The notes under the pieces are model-generated. The model did no database searches and had not been told where the DNA came from. It saw only the letters and a list, made by a program, of their open reading frames with translations. A stretch of DNA of 29,814 nt from a virus, in the IMG/VR virus record IMGVR_UViG_3300031566_000259, positions 1 through 29,814 of that record. One strand, written 5' to 3'. A program made the translations under genes and the position numbers. This document shows, in pieces, positions 2,508 through 28,679 of the stretch (positions within the stretch are counted from its first letter, which is position 1; every line of letters begins with the position of its first letter).

Positions 2508-5500
2508 ATGTTTGAAATTGAAGATTTATTTGGATTAACTATTGATGGAGCTTTTTCATCATTAGAAGAATTTAAAAGTTTTGCAAAAGAAGTTGATACT
2601 TCAACCTTGTTTTCTGTAATTACGCCAGGTGCTTTTAAAGATTTACAAGAATTTCAATCTTCTTTAACTGAAAAAAAAAATCAAGTCGATACTCCTTCAG
2701 ATGGTCAAGAGGAAGTTACGGAATCTATTACAGAGATTCCAACAGAACCTGGCTCTTTGGATTCTTCGCAGGAAAACGTTGAGATACCTGTAAACCCTTT
2801 AATAAAAGATGATACTGAACTTTTAATTCCTGAAGCACCGTCTAGGTCAGGTACACTTAAAAATGAAGACGGAAGTGTATCTACTCATAAAATGAAGACC
2901 GAAACCGATGGTCAAGGTAATTGGTTTTCATTCCCTACAGTATTTCAAAATGAAGACGGAAGTTTTGTTGACATGTCTGAGCAGGCAAAACAAAACTGGG
3001 AGCCTGTATATGAAGAAGCTAAGAAAAGAGGTGAAGTTATAGAGTTTGGTAAAGATGAAAAATCAGCATTAGCATATGGAAAAGGAAGCTGGAAACCTAA
3101 ATCGAGTGTCTCCACAATAGAGTTAATAGAAACAGATGGTGTATTAACAGATTTGACTAGCAACTTGCTAGATGGTTTATTAGAAAAAAGAACTCTAGCA
3201 GTAAAGAAAAATAAAGAAAGAGAGGCTAAATTAAGTCAGGCTCCCTCTATGTACAGGTCTATGCTTGGAGATGACTTTGAGGCAAAAGACGATGATTCTT
3301 TATTACAAATAGACGAAGTTTTAAAAGAAAAAATATTAAATGACTTTAACATTAAAAAAGCACTAGAGAACGAAATTATAGACTTATCTATAATAGATGG
3401 AGCTTTAAAGGGAAATGAAAATGATATCGCTACCTTAAGAAATCTAGGGGTAAAATCATCTAAAGAAACACAACAAGAAATAGATGAAGGTGATTTAAAT
3501 AATCCATACAAGTACGAAGGGAAAACCAATATAATAACTCCTGACCAAGTAGAGGGTTCTTCGGTTAATTCTATGTACAACACAAGTAGTCTTCTTGAAA
3601 TAGAAGGAATGAATATCTTAGATCTTGATGGATATTTAAATGAAAAAGAATATAAAAATCAATACCTAGAATTTGTAGAAAAAGGAATAGTCTCTTCAGA
3701 CCAAGAAGATTACAACTACACTACAGGATATAGCCCAGCACTTGCATCAGAAAGAATAAGACTTGAATACTTAACGAACTACGTAAACAATCAAGTAGAA
3801 AGAAATGTAAAGTCACAAATATTAAACTACCAACTAGAAAACGATGGTAAACTACCTTATCTTGATGGAGTAGAATTAGATTTTACCTCTGGTATAAACG
3901 AACAACAATTAACAGCGTACATTCAGGAACAATTTCCGTTAATGACATCAAAGCTAAAAGAGCAAGATGCCAAAAACCAAGAATTGTATCAGGCTATGAA
4001 AAATGGTGAGTCTCGTGGAGGAACACAAGCTATTAAACAGGGTTGGAGATCAGTAGAAGACAGAATAAATAATTTCTCTTCTGCTACATATGATTTTGTT
4101 GGAGCTGATGATGTGTCTAATCAAATTAGAATGGCCCAAGCTGAAACAGAATTAGATAGAGGTGATTTTTTAAGATACACTTTTGCTAGTGGAAAAGAAG
4201 CAGATGTTGATGGTACAGTTTATCTTGTAGATGGTGAAGATCAAATATATGACACTGAGTTAAACCTTAGAGTAACTAACGTTATTACAGAGCAAGAAGC
4301 AAAAAAAATTAGAAAAGCAGTTGCTACAGATGGTGTAGAAGGGAGAACTTTCAGTAAAGCAGGTGCTGCCATAACAACAGCTGGTATCGCCTCAGACATG
4401 ATTCTTCAAATAGCTTTAACTCGTAAAGTTGGGGTTGCTGGACAAGGAGCTAGTGCTTTTTTATCTGCCTTTGACAGAGGTAGTAAGATTGTAAATATAA
4501 TGAGTAAAGTACCAATGAAAGCAACTACAGCGTCTGCTATGATTGCTCAAGGAACATTATTTTCTACAAACTTAGCGGAGCAAACAAGAAGACAAGCCTT
4601 AAGTAATGGGCTATCTGTTTCTCAAGCTGAAGAGCTTTCTAGTATTGCTGGTATTCAGGGATTTGCTTTAGGCTCATTAACAGCTCCTATATCAACACAG
4701 ACATATGCCATGGATAAAATCTTTGGTAAAGCAGCCAAAGACAAAATAGTAAAAGGTGCGGCAGAAGCTTACGTAAAAAATGGAAGACAAGGCGCTATAA
4801 ACTTTTGGACAAAAGTAAATAACAAGGCTCTAGAATATGTTAAGAAAACTCCTTTATATGGAAAAGAAGGGGCAAAAGAAGTTGTTCAAGAAAATGTTCA
4901 GCAATCAGGTCAAGCTTTTGTTATTGGTGAAAACATTAATGAGGCGGCAGGTAGAGAGATAATGAACGATACCATAACTGGGGATCAATTTATTAATACA
5001 ACAATACTTTCTTTAGCAGCGGGTTTTATGATGCCAATTGCAGGAGATGTTACTGCTGATGTAAAAACAAACTTTAATAAAAGATTTAGACCAGGCGTTG
5101 CTGCAATTGACAGAATGGAGGCCTTATACACTCTTTCAAAAGACGTAGACAAAACAACACAGCTTCTTAATAGCCAAGTAACAAAAGGAGTTTACACAGA
5201 AGAGCAAGTAGCTCAAATGTTAGAAAGTATCAATATTTACAGAAGTACTATAAATTTAATTCCATCTAATTTAAGTTCTGAAACAGCATTAAGCGTAATG
5301 CAAGATATAGACGCTATAAAAAAATTAGAAAATAAAACTATAAAACCTTCAGAAGATTATTTTAATGATAACACAAAAATAGAAGAACAAATACAAGCCT
5401 TAAGAAACAACATAATAACAAAAACTAATTTTGATAATTTATCAAACAAGGGCAAAAGAAAATACAAGGAAGAGGCTGGTAGACAATTATTTAATGAGGC

Positions 5501-8500
5501 AAGAGAAAGGGGTGAGCAAATAATTGAAATAGATAACGACCAAATTACTGAAAGAGCTATTCAAAATTTTCAAAACACTATTAAAGATGCAGCTGCACTT
5601 GCATCAGAAAAAAGTTCTGAGCCACAAGCATCACCTGATGTTGAGGAAAAAGAGCGTTTTGTTACCGATAAACAAGCAGAAAAAGTAAACGACTTAATAA
5701 ATAGACCTGTCACTCTTACTAAGCTAGGTGGATCTAAGCTAGATACGCCAATAGAAGGCGACATGTATGTAGATGGACAACAAGTTGTAGTTGAGGATTC
5801 TGAAGGAAATATAATAGAGATTGGTAACGTAGATGAAATTTCAAATCAAACTTTAGAAGAAATAGGCTTAGAGCAGCAAGTTTCTAATGTTAAGACAGAT
5901 AACGAAGGAAACCTTCAGGTTTTTGATGATGTACTTGTACCAGACAAAGGGGGTATAAAAAGAAATAAAAGAGGTGATGTATCAAGAGTTGTATTAAGAA
6001 GTCCTGATGGAAGTAAAACGGTTACGCTAAGAGGTGTTAATGCTGAAGAAGCTGCATATCAAATATTATTAAACGAAGCACAATCTCCTGAACAAGAACA
6101 AAAAATTAACGAATTACTAGAAAATGATGAAGAATTCCAAAACGAACTTAGACAAGTTGAAAACAATGTCGAAGCAGAAACAAATCAAGATACTCAGCAG
6201 ACTTCTGAGCAATCCAGTACCACAGAAAAAAGAACAGAAGAAGAAGTAACTAAACAAAAAGAAGATGCCATTTCAAAGCCAAGCACAAAGGAGCAAGTGC
6301 TACCAGATGCTCCAACAAGCACAGAAGGAGGGAAAGACTCCGAAGTGGAATTGCAACAAGTGGGAGAAGGAGACGTTGGACAAGTCACTCCCGACACGCA
6401 AGTCCAAGAAGGTGAAACGCAAACCGATAAGCCTAGCGACACGACTACGGAGACAGATGTTGAATTCTTAAAACCAAATGCCCCTGATTCAGCAGGTAGA
6501 TATGAAAACTATTCTTCTGACAAAGTAGAGGTTAATATTTCGGCTCAAAACGACCAAGGTCAACCTTCTACAGGGAAAAAGACTGATTATAGATTTGAGG
6601 TAAGAGTTAATACAAGTCAAGATGGTCAAATGACCAGAAGCAATGCTTTAACTAAAACCTTTAAAACATCTGCTGAGGCTAAAGCTTATGCAGAAAAAAT
6701 TGCAGCAAATGACGCAGCTAAAACTAAGAAGACAGATACTGAACAAGTAACACAACCTAGTGAGGTAGTTTATGAAATGAATAAGACTGACAAAAAGATT
6801 TGGTCTAAGGATTTTGAGATTATAGATAACAGGAATGGTTTAGAGCTTGGCAAAGACGCAGGGAAATGGGTTGTATATAATAGAGTTACTGGAGAATCAG
6901 TTGATGCTAAAAGCAAAAAAGATGCTAAAGATATTGTAAATAATGCCCCTGCTTATGCAGGAATATTTGGTGATGGAACAACGGTTGATTCTGAAATGAT
7001 TGTTACTCCTTCAACGGAAGGTATGAGTGTGAAAGGAAGTAAAAAAGCTCCTAAGATACTTGGAAATAAGCCTAAAATGGTAACTGTCAATGAGTACAAC
7101 GCCTTAAAAACTCAGATAAAATTAGAGGCTAGAGCAGCTAGAGAAGCGCAGCAAGATTTAAAGAAAAAGAGAAAAGCTGTAAATGAGTTAGTAAAGTTAT
7201 TCTCTGATGGGCGAAAGGGACAGTTTTCTCCAAAACAGCTTCAGGCTGTTATAAATAGAAGTGAGTCAACAAATTTCTATTCAAGAAAATCTGTTGATGA
7301 GTTTTTAGATTACATGGAAAAAGTATTTGATAATGCAGAGCATATTTCTAAAGAAAAAGAAGGCGTATCTATTAAGACTAAAATTAAAAACAAAATAAAT
7401 AAAGACACTGAAAATTCATTAAAGGTATCTGCAAAAGAATTTTTAAAATTAGATCCTAAAAAGGTTTCAGATATAGATGAGTATTTAAATTACGCCAATA
7501 CAGTATTAAATGGATTAGGTAAAACTAAGGTTGTTACAAAAAAGGGAGAGAAACAGTTTAAGGTTGCAGACCCTTTTAATATTCAGGATTTAAGGAATTA
7601 TACTATAAAGCAAAATAAAATACAAGCAGATAATAATTTAAAAAGCGCAAGAGAATATTTTACAGAGCTAACAGGTCTAGACTCTGATAAAATGACTATT
7701 GAGGAAATGCAAGACTTAATTAATAAAACCTCAGAAGTCCCAGCCTTAGATAAAGAAAAAATAGAAAAAAATAAAAAAGAAATCAAGAAAGCTTTGTTGG
7801 ATGCTATTGAAGATTCTAAAAGTGAATTGAACTCAAAGACTCAAACTTTAAACCTAAATGTAAATGACAAATCTGATTTAAAAGAACTTTTAGATTTAGA
7901 CATAAACAAATTAGATACCAAGAAAAAAATGGAGCTTCTAGATATATTGATTAATTTCAATGTGAATGGCTCTCTTGGAGGTGCAAAATCTTTTATAGCA
8001 AAAGCAAGAGGAAATGAAGAGATGGAGAATCTTGTTTCTAAAGGAATAAAAAGTGTTTCTTCAACTAACTCAGCAGGTAGAAGTAGAAATGACCAGCTAA
8101 CCTCATTACCTTTAGTTTTTGAATTAATGTTTAAAGGACAATCAAAGGCTCGTGAAGTTATGAACGCATTAGGATTTAATGATTTAATGTTTGGTTCTAA
8201 TAAAGCTAAAAAAGATATTGAGAAATCAATGAAAGAATATTCTGATGTTTTTGGTAAAATAAAAACTAGGAAGGGTAAATACTTTGATCAGTATAATACA
8301 ACTGAGAGAGGTATAATAGCTGAATTACTAAGAATTGAAGTTGACTCTGAGTTATCTGAACAACAACAATTTAATAATACTAAATCATTAATAAAACAAA
8401 CATATGAAGCGTATTTTAATACTGGTAATAAATTAGACAATGCTAATGGTAAAATTATTGAGGAGATATACAATAAATTAGTAGACAAATCCTCAAACAT

Positions 8501-10433
8501 TGCTGAGTTAGAGTCTAAGGTAGACCCTGCTAATTTAAAAGGAGTAAACTACGTTATAGAAAACATATGGGGTGAATTAAGACCTCAACTTGTTGCTGTT
8601 CAGAAATCAATTTACAATGAAAATTTATCTGAAGATATTAACTTTACTCCAAGAACATATTTTAAAATAACACAAGAAGAAACTGATGAAAAAACAAATT
8701 TAGATGATTCATTCTTTGAACCTAAACCTAGAAAAAATCCTTATGATAAAAAATCATCTACCTTGATGAAGGCAAACAGAAGTGGTAACTTACCAAAGGG
8801 TAGGGTTTTAAATTTAGGTTTCGATAGCAATAATTTTAATAAAGCTGAAGCTGCATTAACAGATGTTCTTACGGCTAGTGCTATACGTCAAATACAAGGC
8901 GCTTTAAATTCTGATTCTTTTAATAAAGTTTTTCCAACTAAGTTAAGTAGAGATGTTGTAAAGCAAAGAATTATAGATTATGTTGATGCTAAAAGGGGTA
9001 AAAAAGATATTACTGAAAAAGACCAAAGATTTTTAAGAAGATTAAATAGACTTGCTGGCTTTGGTGTAGCTAAAGTATTAGCAGGTGTAACTCAGCCATT
9101 AAAACAATTAGTTCCTTTAGCTAACACAGCTATAAATGCAGGTCCAGCTAATACCTATAGAGGAATTATGCTTCTTATAAATGGAGGTATGAAGATTATT
9201 GATGAGTCAGGTATGCCGATTGCCAATAGAGGTATTATGTCTCAAGCAGATATAGAGGGATTAAATACTTTAATTGAGAAAGCTGCAAGAACTAAAGGAG
9301 GTCAGACAATAGATTTTTTAGACAAGGTAAACAAAAAGCTACTAGATGTTTTATTAGTGAAGTATGATGTAGTTGCAGCAAGAGCCTCTTTTCTTGCTTA
9401 TTACATGCAGGCAATGAATAAAAAAGGTGTTGCATCAAACGATATAGATTGGACAAAGCCATTAGAAAGGGACGCTAAAACTTTTGCACAACAACAGGTT
9501 GATAGACAACAAAACACATCTGATTCAGATTTGCAGGGTAGACTATTTACATCTCAAAGAAAAGAACCACAAGTTTTAAGAAAAGTACTTTTTCCTTTTG
9601 CTAATTTTTTAATCAATCAAAAAAACAGAATGTATTCTGATGTAAGTACATTATTCTACAATCCAGATTTTATTAAAGGAGACAAGACAGCAGCTGCAAG
9701 ATCTTTAGTAGGGTTAAGTGTAGAGACAGCAATTTTTAACACTTTAGGATACTACATAAGTACTACTTTAGCGTCAATTATTTCTTCATTTATGGGAGGT
9801 GAAACACCTGAAGAGGAAGAGAAAAGAAAAATGTATGCTAAAAGAGGGAGAATAGGAAGTGTTGTTGCTGATATTGCAGTTCCACTACCGTTTTTAAATG
9901 ACACCATGCTTTCTGCATTAAATACAGGAATGGAATTATTAGAAAGCGGAGATGAGGAAGGCGACCCATTTAGGTTTTTCGCTAAAGATGAAAAAGGACT
10001 TTTAGACCAGCTTGGAGTATTAGGAATAACCCCTAAGAAAGCATTGCTTCTTTATGAAATGATTGATCTTTACAGGACAGGAGTTGCTAAGAATGTTTAT
10101 ATGGGTAAAAAATCTACTGCCAATATTAATGAGGATGCTAGAGAAAAAATGGGTATTGTTGCCTCTACGTATTTATTATCTTTATTAGGCGGTGGTGTAG
10201 CTGAAACTAATTACATGGCAGAAAGAGCTTTGAAGTTAGCTAAAAAAACAAGAGAAGGTAAGGCTTTAAAAATAGTTCCTTTTGAAACTAAATCGGAAAA
10301 GAAAAGAAAAAAAGAAGAGGAGTTTACTATAAATTCTAATAAAAATAAAGAAGAGTTTACTATAAATTCTAATAAAAATAAAGAAGAGTTTACTATAAAT
10401 CCTAAGAAAAATAAAGGAGAGTTTAATTTTTAA
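2508..10433 (+). CDS. 2641-aa giant phage protein, probable ejection/polyvalent protein
   Basis: One uninterrupted frame of almost 8 kb. Residues 113-197 hold a compact motif (SGTLKNEDGSVSTHKM, then FPTVF, then a G-x-V-I-E-F helix and YGKGSW), a module I associate with phage internal virion proteins. Residues about 620-740 and 825-850 are Gly/Ala/Ile-rich and could insert in membranes. Residues about 1195-1325 are a Gln/Glu/Thr/Ser-rich linker. Residues about 1500-2150 are Lys-rich helices. Residues about 2175-2570 form a conserved-looking helical/hydrophobic domain that resembles the C-terminal domains of large polyvalent phage proteins (LPD38-like, inferred). The tail carries 11-residue repeats. 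I see no protease, RNA polymerase or lysozyme active site. A role in genome ejection or host takeover is inferred from size and neighbours. Confidence 0.85.
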   Translation: MFEIEDLFGLTIDGAFSSLEEFKSFAKEVDTSTLFSVITPGAFKDLQEFQSSLTEKKNQVDTPSDGQEEVTESITEIPTEPGSLDSSQENVEIPVNPLIKDDTELLIPEAPSRSGTLKNEDGSVSTHKMKTETDGQGNWFSFPTVFQNEDGSFVDMSEQAKQNWEPVYEEAKKRGEVIEFGKDEKSALAYGKGSWKPKSSVSTIELIETDGVLTDLTSNLLDGLLEKRTLAVKKNKEREAKLSQAPSMYRSMLGDDFEAKDDDSLLQIDEVLKEKILNDFNIKKALENEIIDLSIIDGALKGNENDIATLRNLGVKSSKETQQEIDEGDLNNPYKYEGKTNIITPDQVEGSSVNSMYNTSSLLEIEGMNILDLDGYLNEKEYKNQYLEFVEKGIVSSDQEDYNYTTGYSPALASERIRLEYLTNYVNNQVERNVKSQILNYQLENDGKLPYLDGVELDFTSGINEQQLTAYIQEQFPLMTSKLKEQDAKNQELYQAMKNGESRGGTQAIKQGWRSVEDRINNFSSATYDFVGADDVSNQIRMAQAETELDRGDFLRYTFASGKEADVDGTVYLVDGEDQIYDTELNLRVTNVITEQEAKKIRKAVATDGVEGRTFSKAGAAITTAGIASDMILQIALTRKVGVAGQGASAFLSAFDRGSKIVNIMSKVPMKATTASAMIAQGTLFSTNLAEQTRRQALSNGLSVSQAEELSSIAGIQGFALGSLTAPISTQTYAMDKIFGKAAKDKIVKGAAEAYVKNGRQGAINFWTKVNNKALEYVKKTPLYGKEGAKEVVQENVQQSGQAFVIGENINEAAGREIMNDTITGDQFINTTILSLAAGFMMPIAGDVTADVKTNFNKRFRPGVAAIDRMEALYTLSKDVDKTTQLLNSQVTKGVYTEEQVAQMLESINIYRSTINLIPSNLSSETALSVMQDIDAIKKLENKTIKPSEDYFNDNTKIEEQIQALRNNIITKTNFDNLSNKGKRKYKEEAGRQLFNEARERGEQIIEIDNDQITERAIQNFQNTIKDAAALASEKSSEPQASPDVEEKERFVTDKQAEKVNDLINRPVTLTKLGGSKLDTPIEGDMYVDGQQVVVEDSEGNIIEIGNVDEISNQTLEEIGLEQQVSNVKTDNEGNLQVFDDVLVPDKGGIKRNKRGDVSRVVLRSPDGSKTVTLRGVNAEEAAYQILLNEAQSPEQEQKINELLENDEEFQNELRQVENNVEAETNQDTQQTSEQSSTTEKRTEEEVTKQKEDAISKPSTKEQVLPDAPTSTEGGKDSEVELQQVGEGDVGQVTPDTQVQEGETQTDKPSDTTTETDVEFLKPNAPDSAGRYENYSSDKVEVNISAQNDQGQPSTGKKTDYRFEVRVNTSQDGQMTRSNALTKTFKTSAEAKAYAEKIAANDAAKTKKTDTEQVTQPSEVVYEMNKTDKKIWSKDFEIIDNRNGLELGKDAGKWVVYNRVTGESVDAKSKKDAKDIVNNAPAYAGIFGDGTTVDSEMIVTPSTEGMSVKGSKKAPKILGNKPKMVTVNEYNALKTQIKLEARAAREAQQDLKKKRKAVNELVKLFSDGRKGQFSPKQLQAVINRSESTNFYSRKSVDEFLDYMEKVFDNAEHISKEKEGVSIKTKIKNKINKDTENSLKVSAKEFLKLDPKKVSDIDEYLNYANTVLNGLGKTKVVTKKGEKQFKVADPFNIQDLRNYTIKQNKIQADNNLKSAREYFTELTGLDSDKMTIEEMQDLINKTSEVPALDKEKIEKNKKEIKKALLDAIEDSKSELNSKTQTLNLNVNDKSDLKELLDLDINKLDTKKKMELLDILINFNVNGSLGGAKSFIAKARGNEEMENLVSKGIKSVSSTNSAGRSRNDQLTSLPLVFELMFKGQSKAREVMNALGFNDLMFGSNKAKKDIEKSMKEYSDVFGKIKTRKGKYFDQYNTTERGIIAELLRIEVDSELSEQQQFNNTKSLIKQTYEAYFNTGNKLDNANGKIIEEIYNKLVDKSSNIAELESKVDPANLKGVNYVIENIWGELRPQLVAVQKSIYNENLSEDINFTPRTYFKITQEETDEKTNLDDSFFEPKPRKNPYDKKSSTLMKANRSGNLPKGRVLNLGFDSNNFNKAEAALTDVLTASAIRQIQGALNSDSFNKVFPTKLSRDVVKQRIIDYVDAKRGKKDITEKDQRFLRRLNRLAGFGVAKVLAGVTQPLKQLVPLANTAINAGPANTYRGIMLLINGGMKIIDESGMPIANRGIMSQADIEGLNTLIEKAARTKGGQTIDFLDKVNKKLLDVLLVKYDVVAARASFLAYYMQAMNKKGVASNDIDWTKPLERDAKTFAQQQVDRQQNTSDSDLQGRLFTSQRKEPQVLRKVLFPFANFLINQKNRMYSDVSTLFYNPDFIKGDKTAAARSLVGLSVETAIFNTLGYYISTTLASIISSFMGGETPEEEEKRKMYAKRGRIGSVVADIAVPLPFLNDTMLSALNTGMELLESGDEEGDPFRFFAKDEKGLLDQLGVLGITPKKALLLYEMIDLYRTGVAKNVYMGKKSTANINEDAREKMGIVASTYLLSLLGGGVAETNYMAERALKLAKKTREGKALKIVPFETKSEKKRKKEEEFTINSNKNKEEFTINSNKNKEEFTINPKKNKGEFNF
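6265..6471 (+). CDS. Nested out-of-frame 68-aa gene inside the giant gene
   Basis: This frame lies entirely within the giant gene, shifted by one base relative to it. Its protein does not look like a random shadow: it starts MPFQSQAQRSKCYQML, continues with W-N-C-N-K-W and an ETLDKSLP segment, and ends in a Lys/Arg-rich tail. That layout (MPF-S-x-AQR at the start, Cys-Tyr, W-x-C-x-x-W, then x-LP) resembles small conserved phage proteins of unknown function, from memory. The ATG is preceded by AAAAAGAAG, a plausible ribosome site. The host stretch encodes the low-complexity Gln/Glu/Thr linker of the giant protein, where a second frame is easily tolerated, and it is visibly less AT-rich than its surroundings. 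No function can be assigned. Confidence 0.6.
   Translation: MPFQSQAQRSKCYQMLQQAQKEGKTPKWNCNKWEKETLDKSLPTRKSKKVKRKPISLATRLRRQMLNS
10317..10430 (+). repeat. 33-bp tandem repeat at the end of the giant gene
   Basis: Three full copies of a 33-bp unit (10317-10349, 10350-10382, 10383-10415) and a degenerate partial copy run up to the stop codon. They encode EEFTINSNKNK twice, then EEFTINPKKNK, then GEFNF. The first two copies are almost identical at DNA level, so the expansion is recent. The unit length keeps the frame, and copy number could vary between relatives without harm. Confidence 0.9.
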
Positions 10434-18562: not shown

Positions 18563-18637
18563 ATTTAATGGTATTTATTTGGTAGCTTAGTTGGAGAAGC
18601 TACTCTGACTCCTTTATTATTATGAGTGTGAAAAGAA
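18563..18637 (-). promoter_or_regulatory. Leader of the SSB gene with hairpin and conserved motif
   Basis: A 75-bp gap. Just after the exonuclease stop lies TTCACACTCATAA (18632 to 18620), one of five copies of an intergenic motif. Downstream is a 7-bp inverted repeat (GTAGCTT at 18582-18588, AAGCTAC at 18597-18603, 8-nt loop), about 20 bp before the SSB start. Together they suggest control of SSB expression apart from the upstream genes. Confidence 0.45.
18620..18632 (-). repeat. Intergenic motif copy 1 (TTCACACTCATAA)
   Basis: One of five copies. It lies 5 bp after the exonuclease stop on the - strand. It differs from the consensus TTCACACCCATAA by one base. See the other copies for shared layout. 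Confidence 0.75.
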
Positions 18638-23758: not shown

Positions 23759-23781
23759 AACTCTATTTATTTAATTGATTA
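23759..23781 (-). repeat. Conserved leader, copy before the YubB-like gene
   Basis: 22 of 23 matches to the other two copies. Again it is also coding at its far end: it holds the last codons (INQLNK, stop) of paralogue A. Confidence 0.75.
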
Positions 23782-24050
23782 ATAAATTCTACTACAGCTT
23801 GAAATCTTACTTCCAAGTCATTACTGGTTAGGCACTCGTCAAAGTATCCTAAATTCAATCTGTTATCGCTCAGTTTTTCGTCAATCTTTTGGCACACTGG
23901 CATCAACCAATCCCACGAGGTGTGGTAAGGTAGGTAGGGTTCTTCAACCTCTATACCCATAGGGAACATATCATCTGCGTCAGTATAGTAACACACTCCT
24001 TCTTTGATTGATAGTCCCATAAATTCTGCTATTAGTTTGTTATTGTTCAT
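23763..24050 (-). CDS. Phage accessory protein, paralogue A
   Basis: 95 aa. It shares with the next gene (24040-24348) the start NNKLIAEFMG, the middle WDWLMPV and the end AVVEFI, with a more variable region between. This pattern is common in accessory proteins of phages of Bacteroidota; function unknown. The 11-bp overlap of the two genes and their similarity point to a tandem duplication. Its last codons (INQLNK) belong to the DNA that forms the leader of the YubB-like gene. Confidence 0.75.
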   Translation of the reverse strand: MNNNKLIAEFMGLSIKEGVCYYTDADDMFPMGIEVEEPYLPYHTSWDWLMPVCQKIDEKLSDNRLNLGYFDECLTSNDLEVRFQAVVEFINQLNK

Positions 24051-24348
24051 TGTTATATGTTTTAATAAATTCTACTACTGCTTTGTGTGTGTGGTTAATA
24101 TCAGGCACACAATCTCTTATGCTGTAAAAATCTTCCGCATCCCCATCGTCTTGGAAGGAAAGGTCTAATATCTTCTCTACAACGGGCATTAACCAATCCC
24201 ATTTGTCATTATATCTCAATAAAGACTCGCAATAAGTATACACGCCATTTTTATCTAAATACTCAAAGAAATTCTCCCCATTAATTACTTTAGGGCTATC
24301 GACTACTTGATACCCCATAAATTCTGCTATTAGTTTATTGTTTTTCAT
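24040..24348 (-). CDS. Phage accessory protein, paralogue B
   Basis: 102 aa, the upstream member of a duplicated pair. Shared elements with the downstream copy are KNNKLIAEFMG at the start, DKWDWLMPVVEKI in the middle and KAVVEFIKTYN near the end. The insert between them differs (VDSPKVINGENFFEYLDKNG here), so the pair has diverged well past recent duplication. Function unknown. The protein is acidic and soluble. Confidence 0.75.
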   Translation of the reverse strand: MKNNKLIAEFMGYQVVDSPKVINGENFFEYLDKNGVYTYCESLLRYNDKWDWLMPVVEKILDLSFQDDGDAEDFYSIRDCVPDINHTHKAVVEFIKTYNNEQ

Positions 24349-25976: not shown

Positions 25977-25987
25977 AGTTTTTGTTA

Positions 25988-26000
25988 TTATGGGTGTGAA
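25988..26000 (-). repeat. Intergenic motif copy 3 (TTCACACCCATAA)
   Basis: Exact consensus. It lies 3 bp after the stop of the fused amidotransferase gene and only 11 bp before the start of the 80-aa gene, so it must act within a short leader. Confidence 0.85.
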
Positions 26001-26003
26001 TAT

Positions 26004-27014
26004 TTAGTTTTCTATTAAATTAGCGTCTATTGTTTGCATACATGAAATACAGTACCACTCCTTGTCGTAGTCATCGAACATAGGCTCTGGTAACCTGCAA
26101 CCACACCCCTCATCTATATAGTTGGTGGTGTCAACGTCACTCCAACCATCACCATAGCTGTCGTAAGAACGATGAATATATTCTTGAGTATACGTCTTGT
26201 GATGAACACCGCTGTCCTGCTTGTCATTGAAATATATGTAAGGCTCTAACCTACTGCCGTCATCAAGACAAACAGATGTCTTCTCCCTACAATACCAATC
26301 GGGGTGTCCCTCTAGTAAATCTATCGATGATAGGGTGTCCTTGTTTATCAAGAACAAATCAACCTCTACATGCTCACCAATGCCAGGCTTGTTCAGTAAG
26401 TACGGTAACCCATCTATAATCAATGGGTACTTGGCATCTGTCTCGGCAGGGCCAATATACTTAGCACTAGTGAGATAATTATAGTAGTTGTTGTAGTCTT
26501 TCTTTAGTGTGCCATACACGGCTATCAGTGTCTTGTCTAGTACGTTCTTCTTACTATACATAATCCCATTCCTATCTATCCAGTCTTCCTCATTGTACAG
26601 CTCATACGTTTGTTCCTTGAGGTTGGCTGTAACAAACCTGCAATCACTCATCTCTAATACCTCTGCCCATCTATCTTTAGGTATGTCACTGAGTATCTCT
26701 GCCATGTGCTGAGTGTCAGTCTTGTTCTTGTTACCTAAGTTCCATATACTACCATTCTGAAATAGTATCTCGTCATTAGTAATGTTGAACGGGTGACAGT
26801 TAGCCTTGTTTATCTTACCGATAGTAGCAAACCTAAAGTGTGCAATGTATGGTCTATCTGTTTTTAGTATCATGTAATCATCACTCTTGTGATACGTTAC
26901 GTCCCACTTGTCTAGCCATAGAACACCTAGCCCATGAGGGTTGATCTTTGCAGATGCAAGTAGCGTGTCTGTACTGATAAGTTTATTGTTGTCTTTAATT
27001 ATAATAATGCACAT
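26004..27014 (-). CDS. Fused class II glutamine amidotransferase, GGCT and zinc ribbon
   Basis: 336 aa with three parts. (1) Residues 1-160: class II glutamine amidotransferase of the Ntn-hydrolase fold, with nucleophile C2 directly after the initiator Met (MCIIII), NPHGLG (25-30), AHFRFATIG (58-66, R61), CHPF (73-76) and QNGSI (86-90). (2) Residues 162-285: gamma-glutamylcyclotransferase/AIG2 fold, with AVYGTLKK (165-172) and the acidic LEGHPDWY (234-241). (3) Residues 300-325: C-x-C...C-x-x-C zinc ribbon. The first part releases ammonia from glutamine or acts on gamma-glutamyl bonds; the second opens or closes gamma-glutamyl linkages. The gene starts 11 bp after the amidoligase stop, so both belong to one pathway. 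Confidence 0.9.
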   Translation of the reverse strand: MCIIIIKDNNKLISTDTLLASAKINPHGLGVLWLDKWDVTYHKSDDYMILKTDRPYIAHFRFATIGKINKANCHPFNITNDEILFQNGSIWNLGNKNKTDTQHMAEILSDIPKDRWAEVLEMSDCRFVTANLKEQTYELYNEEDWIDRNGIMYSKKNVLDKTLIAVYGTLKKDYNNYYNYLTSAKYIGPAETDAKYPLIIDGLPYLLNKPGIGEHVEVDLFLINKDTLSSIDLLEGHPDWYCREKTSVCLDDGSRLEPYIYFNDKQDSGVHHKTYTQEYIHRSYDSYGDGWSDVDTTNYIDEGCGCRLPEPMFDDYDKEWYCISCMQTIDANLIEN

Positions 27015-27025
27015 AGTGTTTATAT

Positions 27026-28294
27026 TTAGTCGTTATTAATAAATTCACGTATGTTGTCAGTAACCTCATCTAGTATCAAGTATCTTCTAAATGACTTGGC
27101 ATACTCGTAAATAGAGTCTACCTTGTTGGTGTCCCCACCATACATCTTGTCAACTATAGGCCTAACCATTACTAGGAAATCATCTAAAGGCTTGGGGTCT
27201 TGGAAGGTGTAGTGCATGATGTTATACATCAAGTCGTACCTTAGCTTGAGCTGCTTGGTGCAGGTTACCCTAGATGGTATACGTAGCTCTACCCTGTTAC
27301 CCTTTACATTTACAGGTGAGTACTTTGTGTTGTCCTGTTTCTTAATGCCCTTATTACTGCTGCAATAGCTACGCTTTAGTCTGTGTCTGTACAGCGCGTA
27401 TATCAATGATAGTCTTGGCTTTAATTGATTGACTATGTCATAGCCATCTAGTATAAGGCTAGTAGAGTCTTGCTTCATAGATATAGTTATATGACCACCA
27501 CAGTTAATATCTGAAGGGCTGTCAATAATATGTGATGCTTCGTCAATCATATCAAACACCTGCTTCCTATACTTACTACCAACAGGAGACAGTGGTAGTA
27601 TATTGGTAACAGCTTCAACACCACAACTGCTGTCTGTCTCTGCACCTGCAAACAAATAATACTCACCAAACTCATCACCCTGTTCGTCAGATACAGTACC
27701 ATCAGGCATCTCAAACTTAGTCTTCTCTATCTCAAAACCTACACTGAAACGACTTTTCTGATACCCATAGTTGAGGTCCTCTGGGTCCTTGTTAGAATGA
27801 TATGAGCCTATGCAGCCCTCTTTGTTACAATTCGCAAGGTCTTCATCATAATAATATTCACCTTCGTTATCACAATAGTGAGCATCGTCTTCCTCAACAT
27901 AGTCGTCAATGTCTTCACAGTATACAGCCTGGTCTTCATGTAGCCAGTGTTCTGATGCTCTACCATACTCTATCCACCTGTAGTTATCAGAGTTGCAGAA
28001 GTTTTCCTCTGCTCCATGCACACCGCAGTAAGACTCAGTCATCTGCATCTCATCAGAGTATGTGATTTCTTCTACAGCACACCAAACAGTGTCCTCTATA
28101 GGCCTGTAGTCATCCGTGTCCTCACAATGCACAAACTCATCACACATCATGTCGTTCGTTACATGGTCCTCTTCTCCATTAACAAACACAATCTCTGCGT
28201 CTTCTTTTAAAATAAATTCTGACTGATAGTTAGACCACACACAATCCTCTGAGCTGTGTGTCTCTCCATCAATAACATGAAAATCTTTTTCCAT
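27026..28294 (-). CDS. Phage amidoligase with N-terminal acidic Cys repeats
   Basis: 422 aa. Residues 180-360 carry the pattern of the COOH-NH2 ligase (amidoligase, glutamine-synthetase-like fold): GFEIE (186-190), AETDSSCG-x-E (218-227), INCGGHITIS (263-272), RHRLKRSYC (303-311) and NRVELRIPSR (333-342), as expected for metal, nucleotide and substrate contacts. Such enzymes form amide bonds using ATP, and in phages they occur with class II amidotransferase and GGCT/AIG2 proteins, as here. Residues 50-162 are unusual: repeats of C-E-D-x-D-D-Y, with Cys about every 15 residues (C58/C72, C126/C141/C156, C161) in a very acidic context, probably metal-binding. Substrate unknown. Confidence 0.82.
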   Translation of the reverse strand: MEKDFHVIDGETHSSEDCVWSNYQSEFILKEDAEIVFVNGEEDHVTNDMMCDEFVHCEDTDDYRPIEDTVWCAVEEITYSDEMQMTESYCGVHGAEENFCNSDNYRWIEYGRASEHWLHEDQAVYCEDIDDYVEEDDAHYCDNEGEYYYDEDLANCNKEGCIGSYHSNKDPEDLNYGYQKSRFSVGFEIEKTKFEMPDGTVSDEQGDEFGEYYLFAGAETDSSCGVEAVTNILPLSPVGSKYRKQVFDMIDEASHIIDSPSDINCGGHITISMKQDSTSLILDGYDIVNQLKPRLSLIYALYRHRLKRSYCSSNKGIKKQDNTKYSPVNVKGNRVELRIPSRVTCTKQLKLRYDLMYNIMHYTFQDPKPLDDFLVMVRPIVDKMYGGDTNKVDSIYEYAKSFRRYLILDEVTDNIREFINND

Positions 28295-28379
28295 AATAAA
28301 TTAAATTAAATTACGCCTACTATTAAGGGTTTTGGCTTGTCCCTTTATTTTTATGCTTATGGGGTGTGAACAAATTAAC
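28295..28379 (-). promoter_or_regulatory. Leader of the amidoligase gene
   Basis: An 85-bp gap between two co-directional genes. It contains a TTCACACCCCATAA copy (28370 to 28357, one extra C), just after the stop of the upstream gene, and A/T-rich DNA with AATTTAATTTAATTTATT directly before the start. A weak 5-bp inverted repeat (AAGGG/CCCTT, 28326-28347 region) is present. It is the only sizeable non-coding segment before the amidoligase operon. Confidence 0.4.
28357..28370 (-). repeat. Intergenic motif copy 4 (TTCACACCCCATAA)
   Basis: Consensus with one extra C. It lies 9 bp after the stop of the 95-aa gene and 62 bp before the amidoligase start. Confidence 0.85.
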
Positions 28380-28667
28380 TTATTCGTCCCATGTAGTCCA
28401 CAGATGTGTCTCTGTATCATATGATAACTCAACAAGTTCATCGTCTGTTAGGTCACACACCTTCATGTCTTCCTCTATCTCTTGCTCGCTCCAATCAAAC
28501 GACCTTAGCACCTTCACTAGGTCCTCTTCTTTAGCTATATATCTACCATCAAATAGTAGGAAACCTTCCCACATTCCCTCTCCAGTTATGTCGCACGTTC
28601 TTGGTGCAGGCTTATCCCAACCCCTGTAACTATGCTCTTGGCTTACTATAAAATCATCGTAACTCAT
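28380..28667 (-). CDS. 95-aa acidic phage protein with CDITGEGMWEG motif
   Basis: The segment RTCDITGEGMWEGFLLFDGRYI (about 23-44; the first 20 residues are the key block) recalls a motif C-x-x-T-G-E-G-M-x-E-G shared by hypothetical proteins of many phages and mobile elements. The C-terminal part is strongly acidic and Trp-rich (FDWSEQEIEEDM, ETHLWTTWDE). It is encoded immediately before the amidoligase and may belong to the same unit, but its role is unknown. Confidence 0.75.
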   Translation of the reverse strand: MSYDDFIVSQEHSYRGWDKPAPRTCDITGEGMWEGFLLFDGRYIAKEEDLVKVLRSFDWSEQEIEEDMKVCDLTDDELVELSYDTETHLWTTWDE

Positions 28668-28679
28668 GTCTCTATTGTA

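Follow-up and report, generated by a model that had tools for sequence, protein, structure and literature searches.

An accessory phage cassette pairing a predicted glutamine synthetase-like amidoligase with a fused amidotransferase-GGACT protein

We describe here a two-gene cassette in a viral genome fragment, IMG/VR virus record IMGVR_UViG_3300031566_000259, the whole 29,814 bases of which are referred to as the window. The minus strand of the window carries replication genes for a Sak annealing protein, a DUF3799 exonuclease, a VirE-type primase, and a helicase, and on the same strand lie a gene for a predicted glutamine synthetase (GS)-like amidoligase and, downstream of it, a gene for a single chain joining a class II glutamine amidotransferase (GAT) domain, a predicted gamma-glutamylamine cyclotransferase (GGACT) domain, and a cysteine-rich tail (Table 1). 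An initial annotation of the window had proposed such a pair with a gap of 11 bp, and both ORFs and the gap were confirmed; missing from it were the acidic repeat domain at the N terminus of the ligase (residues 1 to 165) and a 95-aa ORF accompanying the pair. Elsewhere in the window, a plus-strand ORF of 2641 aa (2508-10433) has no Pfam match, and two minus-strand ORFs (23763-24050 and 24040-24348) are tandem copies of one family (IAEFMG...WDWLMPV) that is present in 88 loci.

Table 1. Features of the cassette and its edges in the window
Feature	Position	Strand	Basis
Intergenic repeat TTCACACCCATAAT, downstream cassette edge	25979..26000	-	4 found vs 0.05 expected
Swapped cassette, replaced in L168 by unrelated small ORFs	25981..28673	-	Comparison with L168
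Fused class II GAT-GGACT-cysteine-rich tail protein, 336 aa	26004..27014	-	
Putative zinc ribbon, residues 303-328 (C304, C306, C322, C325)	26031..26108	-	Near-invariant cysteines
Predicted GGACT/AIG2 domain, residues 162-281	26172..26531	-	PF06094, human GGACT fold, profile, catalytic residues
Class II GAT (Ntn) domain, residues 1-161	26532..27014	-	Fold, conservation, motif order as in GlmS
Predicted GS-like amidoligase with N-terminal acidic repeat domain, 422 aa	27026..28294	-	
Predicted amidoligase catalytic domain, residues 178-420	27035..27763	-	GS fold, profile match to PF12224-type ligases, invariant columns
N-terminal domain of degenerate ~18-20-aa beta-hairpin repeats, residues 1-165	27800..28294	-	AF2 secondary structure, composition, homologues
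95-aa ORF within the swapped block	28380..28667	-	

In the fusion protein, PF06094 matches residues 165 to 269 (E value, 1.9e-16; 61.2 bits against a Pfam cutoff of 22.8). An AlphaFold model built from 69 homologues (pLDDT, 91; linker poorly modelled) gives residues ~161 to 280 a predicted fold whose best PDB match is human GGACT (Z, 18.8; rmsd, 2.0 Å), and the profile of the fusion family matched GGACT among PDB entries with E values of 1e-17 to 1e-13. Residues Y167-G168-T169-L170, E235, Y241, and Y261, invariant in the 69-row fusion alignment, correspond by profile alignment to the catalytic residues of mouse GGACT, Y7-G8-T9-L10, E82, Y88, and Y115 (PMC2954230). The GGCT/AIG2 domain named by the initial annotation is therefore upheld, and the PDB match, profile, and catalytic residues mark it as a predicted GGACT rather than another GGCT. 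Human and mouse GGACT (3jub, 3juc, 3jud, 1vkb) have this fold and these residues in common with the fusion but, unlike it, are single-domain animal enzymes with no linked ligase.

The GAT half falls below the Pfam cutoffs (GATase_6, 20.4 against 27 bits; GATase_4, 15.5 against 23 bits); the GATase_4 cutoff is narrowly exceeded in L011 and other relatives and in the unfused protein P0007. Its identity is settled by the AlphaFold model, in which residues ~2 to 161 match both the glutaminase domain of GlmS (Z, 12.1) and EgtC (Z, 11.8). Conservation was scored over 108 distinct fusion homologues, 107 of which could be aligned: C2, R61, T64, G66, H74, N87, and G88 are kept in 107/107, and D100 is kept in 106. 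Cys2, directly after the initiator Met in all 107, occupies the nucleophile position of GATs and is the predicted nucleophile, exposed by Met removal. The glutamine-binding residues R61, N87-G88, and D100 accompany an Ntn fold, as in class II GATs, and the motifs follow the same order as in GlmS, in agreement with the class II Ntn amidotransferase originally proposed. The further proposal that both fused domains trim is supported for one of them. The GGACT family cleaves gamma-glutamylamines, but the GAT domain matches the ammonia-feeding GlmS as well as the hydrolase EgtC and, because the two fit equally, its fold and residues are compatible with either an editor or an ammonia supplier. A zinc ribbon in the tail is plausible, with four cysteines (C304, C306, C322, and C325) near-invariant in the 69-row alignment; against it, the tail has no cysteine at all in 12/108 homologues, and the linker is poorly modelled.

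The ligase has no family match in Pfam, PHROG, or NCBIfam, and PF12224 (Amidoligase_2) gave no hit at an E value of ≤1 with it or with five sampled members of its clade. In its AlphaFold model (pLDDT, 93), residues 178 to 379 form a GS catalytic fold, matching glutamine synthetase (Z, 9.6; rmsd, 3.5 over 167 residues) and YbdK (Z, 8.8). The top Foldseek match of the model is gamma-glutamylmethylamide synthetase (E value, 3e-5), and many annotated phage amidoligases in BFVD match it as well. By hhalign, the ligase family aligns with 26 PF12224-type phage ligases (P, 1e-10; prob, 97), whereas two unrelated families of the window, used as controls, gave P values of 0.41 and 0.31. The motifs G186-F-E188-I-E190, E219-x-D221-x-S-C-G-x-E227, C265-G-G-H268, and E336-x-R338 are made up of residues invariant or nearly so in 71 alignment rows. 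Among them, the metal/ATP motifs ExE, E-x7-E, GxH, and ExR (188/190, 219/227, 268, and 336/338) are ordered as in Escherichia coli GlnA, with equal E-x7-E spacing. No significant match to E. coli GlnA/PuuA emerged when the profiles were aligned directly, and GS was not among the PDB sequences found by an HMM search, so the link to GS rests on fold and motifs. Fold, profile match, and motifs together point to a GS-like amidoligase in the C-terminal half of the protein, as the initial annotation had read from the GFEIE, GGHIT, and NRVELR motifs, and place it in a clade just outside PF12224. This clade comprises ~100 sequences, and the members sampled are not recognized by Pfam.

Residues 1 to 165 of the ligase contain 30% Asp/Glu, 4% Lys/Arg, and 10 Cys, and this domain may bind a target. 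Between the closest relatives with the acidic form (L009 and L010), the N-terminal domain has a dN of 0.129 and the catalytic domain one of 0.012, whereas their dS values are similar (0.20 and 0.16, respectively). Between L089 and L090, the values of dN are 0.256 and 0.111, but dS is also higher in the N-terminal domain, so the faster evolution of this domain rests on few pairs. The majority of the ligases in the clade (~290 to 340 aa) are without it, and targeting by the acidic domain therefore cannot be general.

Single-sequence scans of viral contigs recovered no relatives of the pair, and megablast against phages gave no match. Relatives were recovered by scans with alignments seeded by Podoviridae sp. 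ctfjg026 (MW202828) and Phage C75C1 (OQ984151). The fusion-seeded scan yielded 80 viral loci, with the ligase upstream in every locus having at least 2 kb of upstream sequence. Across all scans, the ligase lies upstream on the same strand in 109/109 loci carrying both genes; these are not 109 independent events, because the phages are related and some contigs were fetched twice (93 fusion sequences are distinct). The two genes are separated by 1 to 75 bp in window-like loci and by as much as 4.9 kb in others. In MW202828 (L002), phage genes for GroEL (1226-2854) and GroES (964-1269) lie upstream of the ligase gene and on the other strand, and one family of antisense ORFs in 77 loci suggests that GroEL is common in this lineage.

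The pairing of ligase and fusion is not due to chance. It is very improbable that two unrelated accessory enzymes merely came to be neighbors in one phage lineage; most loci do come from one broad phage group, which makes the 109 observations dependent, but the pairing recurs across different ligase types, gene orders, and hosts. Where the ligase belongs to another family, the fused chain still has a ligase partner, as in C75C1 and L148, whose ligase is a true member of PF12224. Unfused ligase and GAT genes occur together in Arthrobacter phages Salgado and Ottawa, in MEP402, and in MT835576, and a ligase with GGCT and no GAT annotated nearby occurs in Geobacillus GR1 and Bacillus 035JT001, so that unfused pairs of one kind or the other span phages of Arthrobacter, Geobacillus, Bacillus, Methylophilales, and gut bacteria. 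These independent pairings largely refute an incidental neighborhood. An amidoligase match, a GGCT/Ntn match, and recurrence of the pairing in related phages, on which the initial annotation had staked its proposal, were all found. Departures from the pair were also seen. Porphyromonas phage016a has a ligase alone, and in L094 (5503-7634) a same-clade ligase precedes an unfused GAT, with no GGCT. A Campylobacteraceae genome (L131, 8001-8822) has a solitary GAT-GGACT chain next to genes similar to those for uracil-DNA glycosylase and ribosomal protein L20; no PF12224 ligase was found in that genome by a weak search whose controls also gave no hits, and the fusion is absent from 149 other genomes of the same order.

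A survey for the pair covered 39 contigs that encode a related primase and have 7 kb or more of upstream sequence. The fusion is present in 14 (13 with the ligase and one near a contig edge), neither gene is present in 25, and the ligase alone is present in none. One phage, L168, is 97 to 98% identical to the window across most of the shared early region and has at the place of the cassette (1167-2881) unrelated ORFs of 157, 87, 230, and 78 aa, the two longest of which have no Pfam match; the junctions fall in intergenic DNA. The ligase and the fusion are gained and lost as a unit and are accessory to the phage. Because the near-identical L168 is without the cassette, the phage can dispense with it in some setting; the median dN/dS is ~0.10 for both genes, indicating purifying selection, and the cassette is therefore useful where present.

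Phage operons of an amidoligase with a GAT, and in some cases a GGCT, have already been described (PMC10580990, PMC3890496, PMC11253131), and the system is therefore less novel than the initial annotation supposed. Predictions of such operons go back to 2009, the operons are widespread, and their interpretation is traced to Iyer et al. 2009, as quoted in the papers citing it (PMC10580990, PMC11253131, PMC11318856). In phiEco32/LUZ24-like modules (UFV-P2, PMC3890496; Pseudomonas phage O4), an amidoligase and a class II GAT are found together among early genes, as here, and UFV-P2 also encodes AIG2/GGCT; the linkage of an amidoligase to a class II GAT and/or GGCT that defines this type is present in the window. 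Those modules differ in having GAT and GGCT as separate ORFs rather than a single chain and in adding a COOH-NH2 ligase (PF14395) and an ATP-grasp protein, neither of which was found among the scanned ORFs of the window, a genome fragment; the window ligase also lies outside PF12224. Methylophilales phages MEP401 and MEP402 (PMC10580990) resemble the window in a cysteine-rich stretch before the catalytic domain of the ligase and a class II GAT directly after it, but they have no GGCT domain, and their ligase falls weakly within PF12224. MW202828 and OQ984151 have the fused GAT-GGACT chain, annotated in both only as gamma-glutamyl cyclotransferase, with an amidoligase upstream, as in the window; the PF12224 ligase of C75C1 is 0.85 kb away, and the N terminus of the MW202828 ligase differs from that of the window. 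A further resemblance is to EgtA and EgtC of ergothioneine biosynthesis, a gamma-glutamyl ligase and an enzyme of the class II GAT fold that takes the ligase-added gamma-glutamyl group off again (PMC9103826); EgtC has no GGCT domain, and the product of that pathway is a small metabolite. New here are a single type of GAT-GGACT chain paired with two families of ligase and a ligase clade missed by every library, with its acidic, fast-evolving N-terminal domain.

The GS-fold enzymes GS, GmaS, and PuuA make gamma-glutamyl amides, GGACT breaks gamma-glutamylamines, and class II GATs either release ammonia from glutamine or, in the precedent of EgtC (PMC9103826), take away a gamma-glutamyl group that a ligase attached. 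With a GS fold and a GGACT, two of the three domains point to gamma-glutamylamine chemistry. The reading we prefer, tentatively and at a little under an even chance, is that this mobile two-enzyme cassette makes and edits gamma-glutamyl-type amide bonds. Using ATP, the ligase would phosphorylate a carboxylate (in the simplest case the glutamate gamma-carboxyl, as for GS, GmaS, and PuuA) and would join this to an amine on a host target that the acidic N-terminal repeats hold in place. The GGACT domain would free the amine and 5-oxoproline from the ligase product, and the GAT domain would hydrolyze gamma-glutamyl amides or supply ammonia from glutamine. The cassette would serve as an accessory infection function, probably directed at the host cell, given that a near-identical phage is without it. 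Against making and editing of such bonds stand the equal fit of the GAT domain to GlmS and EgtC, the nonsignificant sequence similarity of the ligase to GS, the many clade ligases without an acidic domain, and the unfused or solitary arrangements in L094 and the Campylobacteraceae genome; the literature found reports no activity, substrate, product, or benefit for any member. A narrower form seems improbable, namely, a write/erase tagging system in which the acidic repeats choose a basic host protein, the GS-fold domain gamma-links glutamate to its lysine, and the GAT-GGACT chain takes the tag off again through two different reactions.

Glutamine-dependent amidation has precedents in MurT-GatD and LtsA, which employ a ligase other than that of the window. 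Here, the GAT domain would channel ammonia to the ligase, which would turn a carboxylate, for example, of a cell wall peptide, into a carboxamide, with GGACT only clearing side products. We regard this as unlikely, if a serious alternative. The GAT domain retains the glutamine-binding residues of GlmS, and phage amidoligases often occur with a class II GAT (Salgado, Ottawa, MEP402, and MT835576), also in cases without an annotated GGCT alongside. A supply of ammonia cannot be common to all such systems, however, because GR1 and 035JT001 pair a ligase with GGCT and have no GAT annotated nearby; no GAT-ligase fusion was found, and the specificity of GGACT for gamma-glutamylamines is left unaccounted for.

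The initial annotation named three possible uses of the cassette, namely, protein tagging, amine capping, and production of a small gamma-glutamyl compound. Two further proposals also concern its use. With either chemistry, it could alter a peptidoglycan or envelope peptide and so block the adsorption or injection of rival phages. For amidoligases of the phiEco32 type, a cell wall change against superinfection has been proposed in print (Iyer et al. 2009, as relayed in PMC10580990, PMC11253131, and PMC11318856), and a swappable accessory cassette suits a role in competition. We nevertheless consider it rather unlikely, as neither N terminus has an obvious signal peptide by eye and the GAT needs a free N-terminal Cys from cytoplasmic Met removal; cytoplasmic precursors could still be targets. 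We give similarly little weight to small-molecule metabolism, in which the cassette would interconvert gamma-glutamyl-amines such as polyamines or glutathione-like peptides and thereby feed or protect the infected cell. PuuA, GmaS, and GGACT do act on small gamma-glutamylamines, and the fold matches of the ligase include GmaS and YbdK, but no family, whether a further enzyme or a conserved peptide substrate, is constant between or beside the pair across 93 distinct loci, and the acidic, fast-evolving N-terminal domain better suits a macromolecular target.

The cassette is reduced to two genes and includes a predicted GGACT domain, by which the range of likely bonds shrinks to a gamma-glutamylamine, and the window and L168 are naturally matched phages with and without it. 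The compact form, the predicted GGACT identity, and the cassette-less twin therefore make the predictions of chemistry and function testable. The repeat at the downstream edge of the cassette, TTCACACCCATAAT, has further minus-strand copies between early genes at 18611, 23070, and 29265, and a copy at 28370 has one extra C. It is also found in L168 and could be a regulatory or recombination element.
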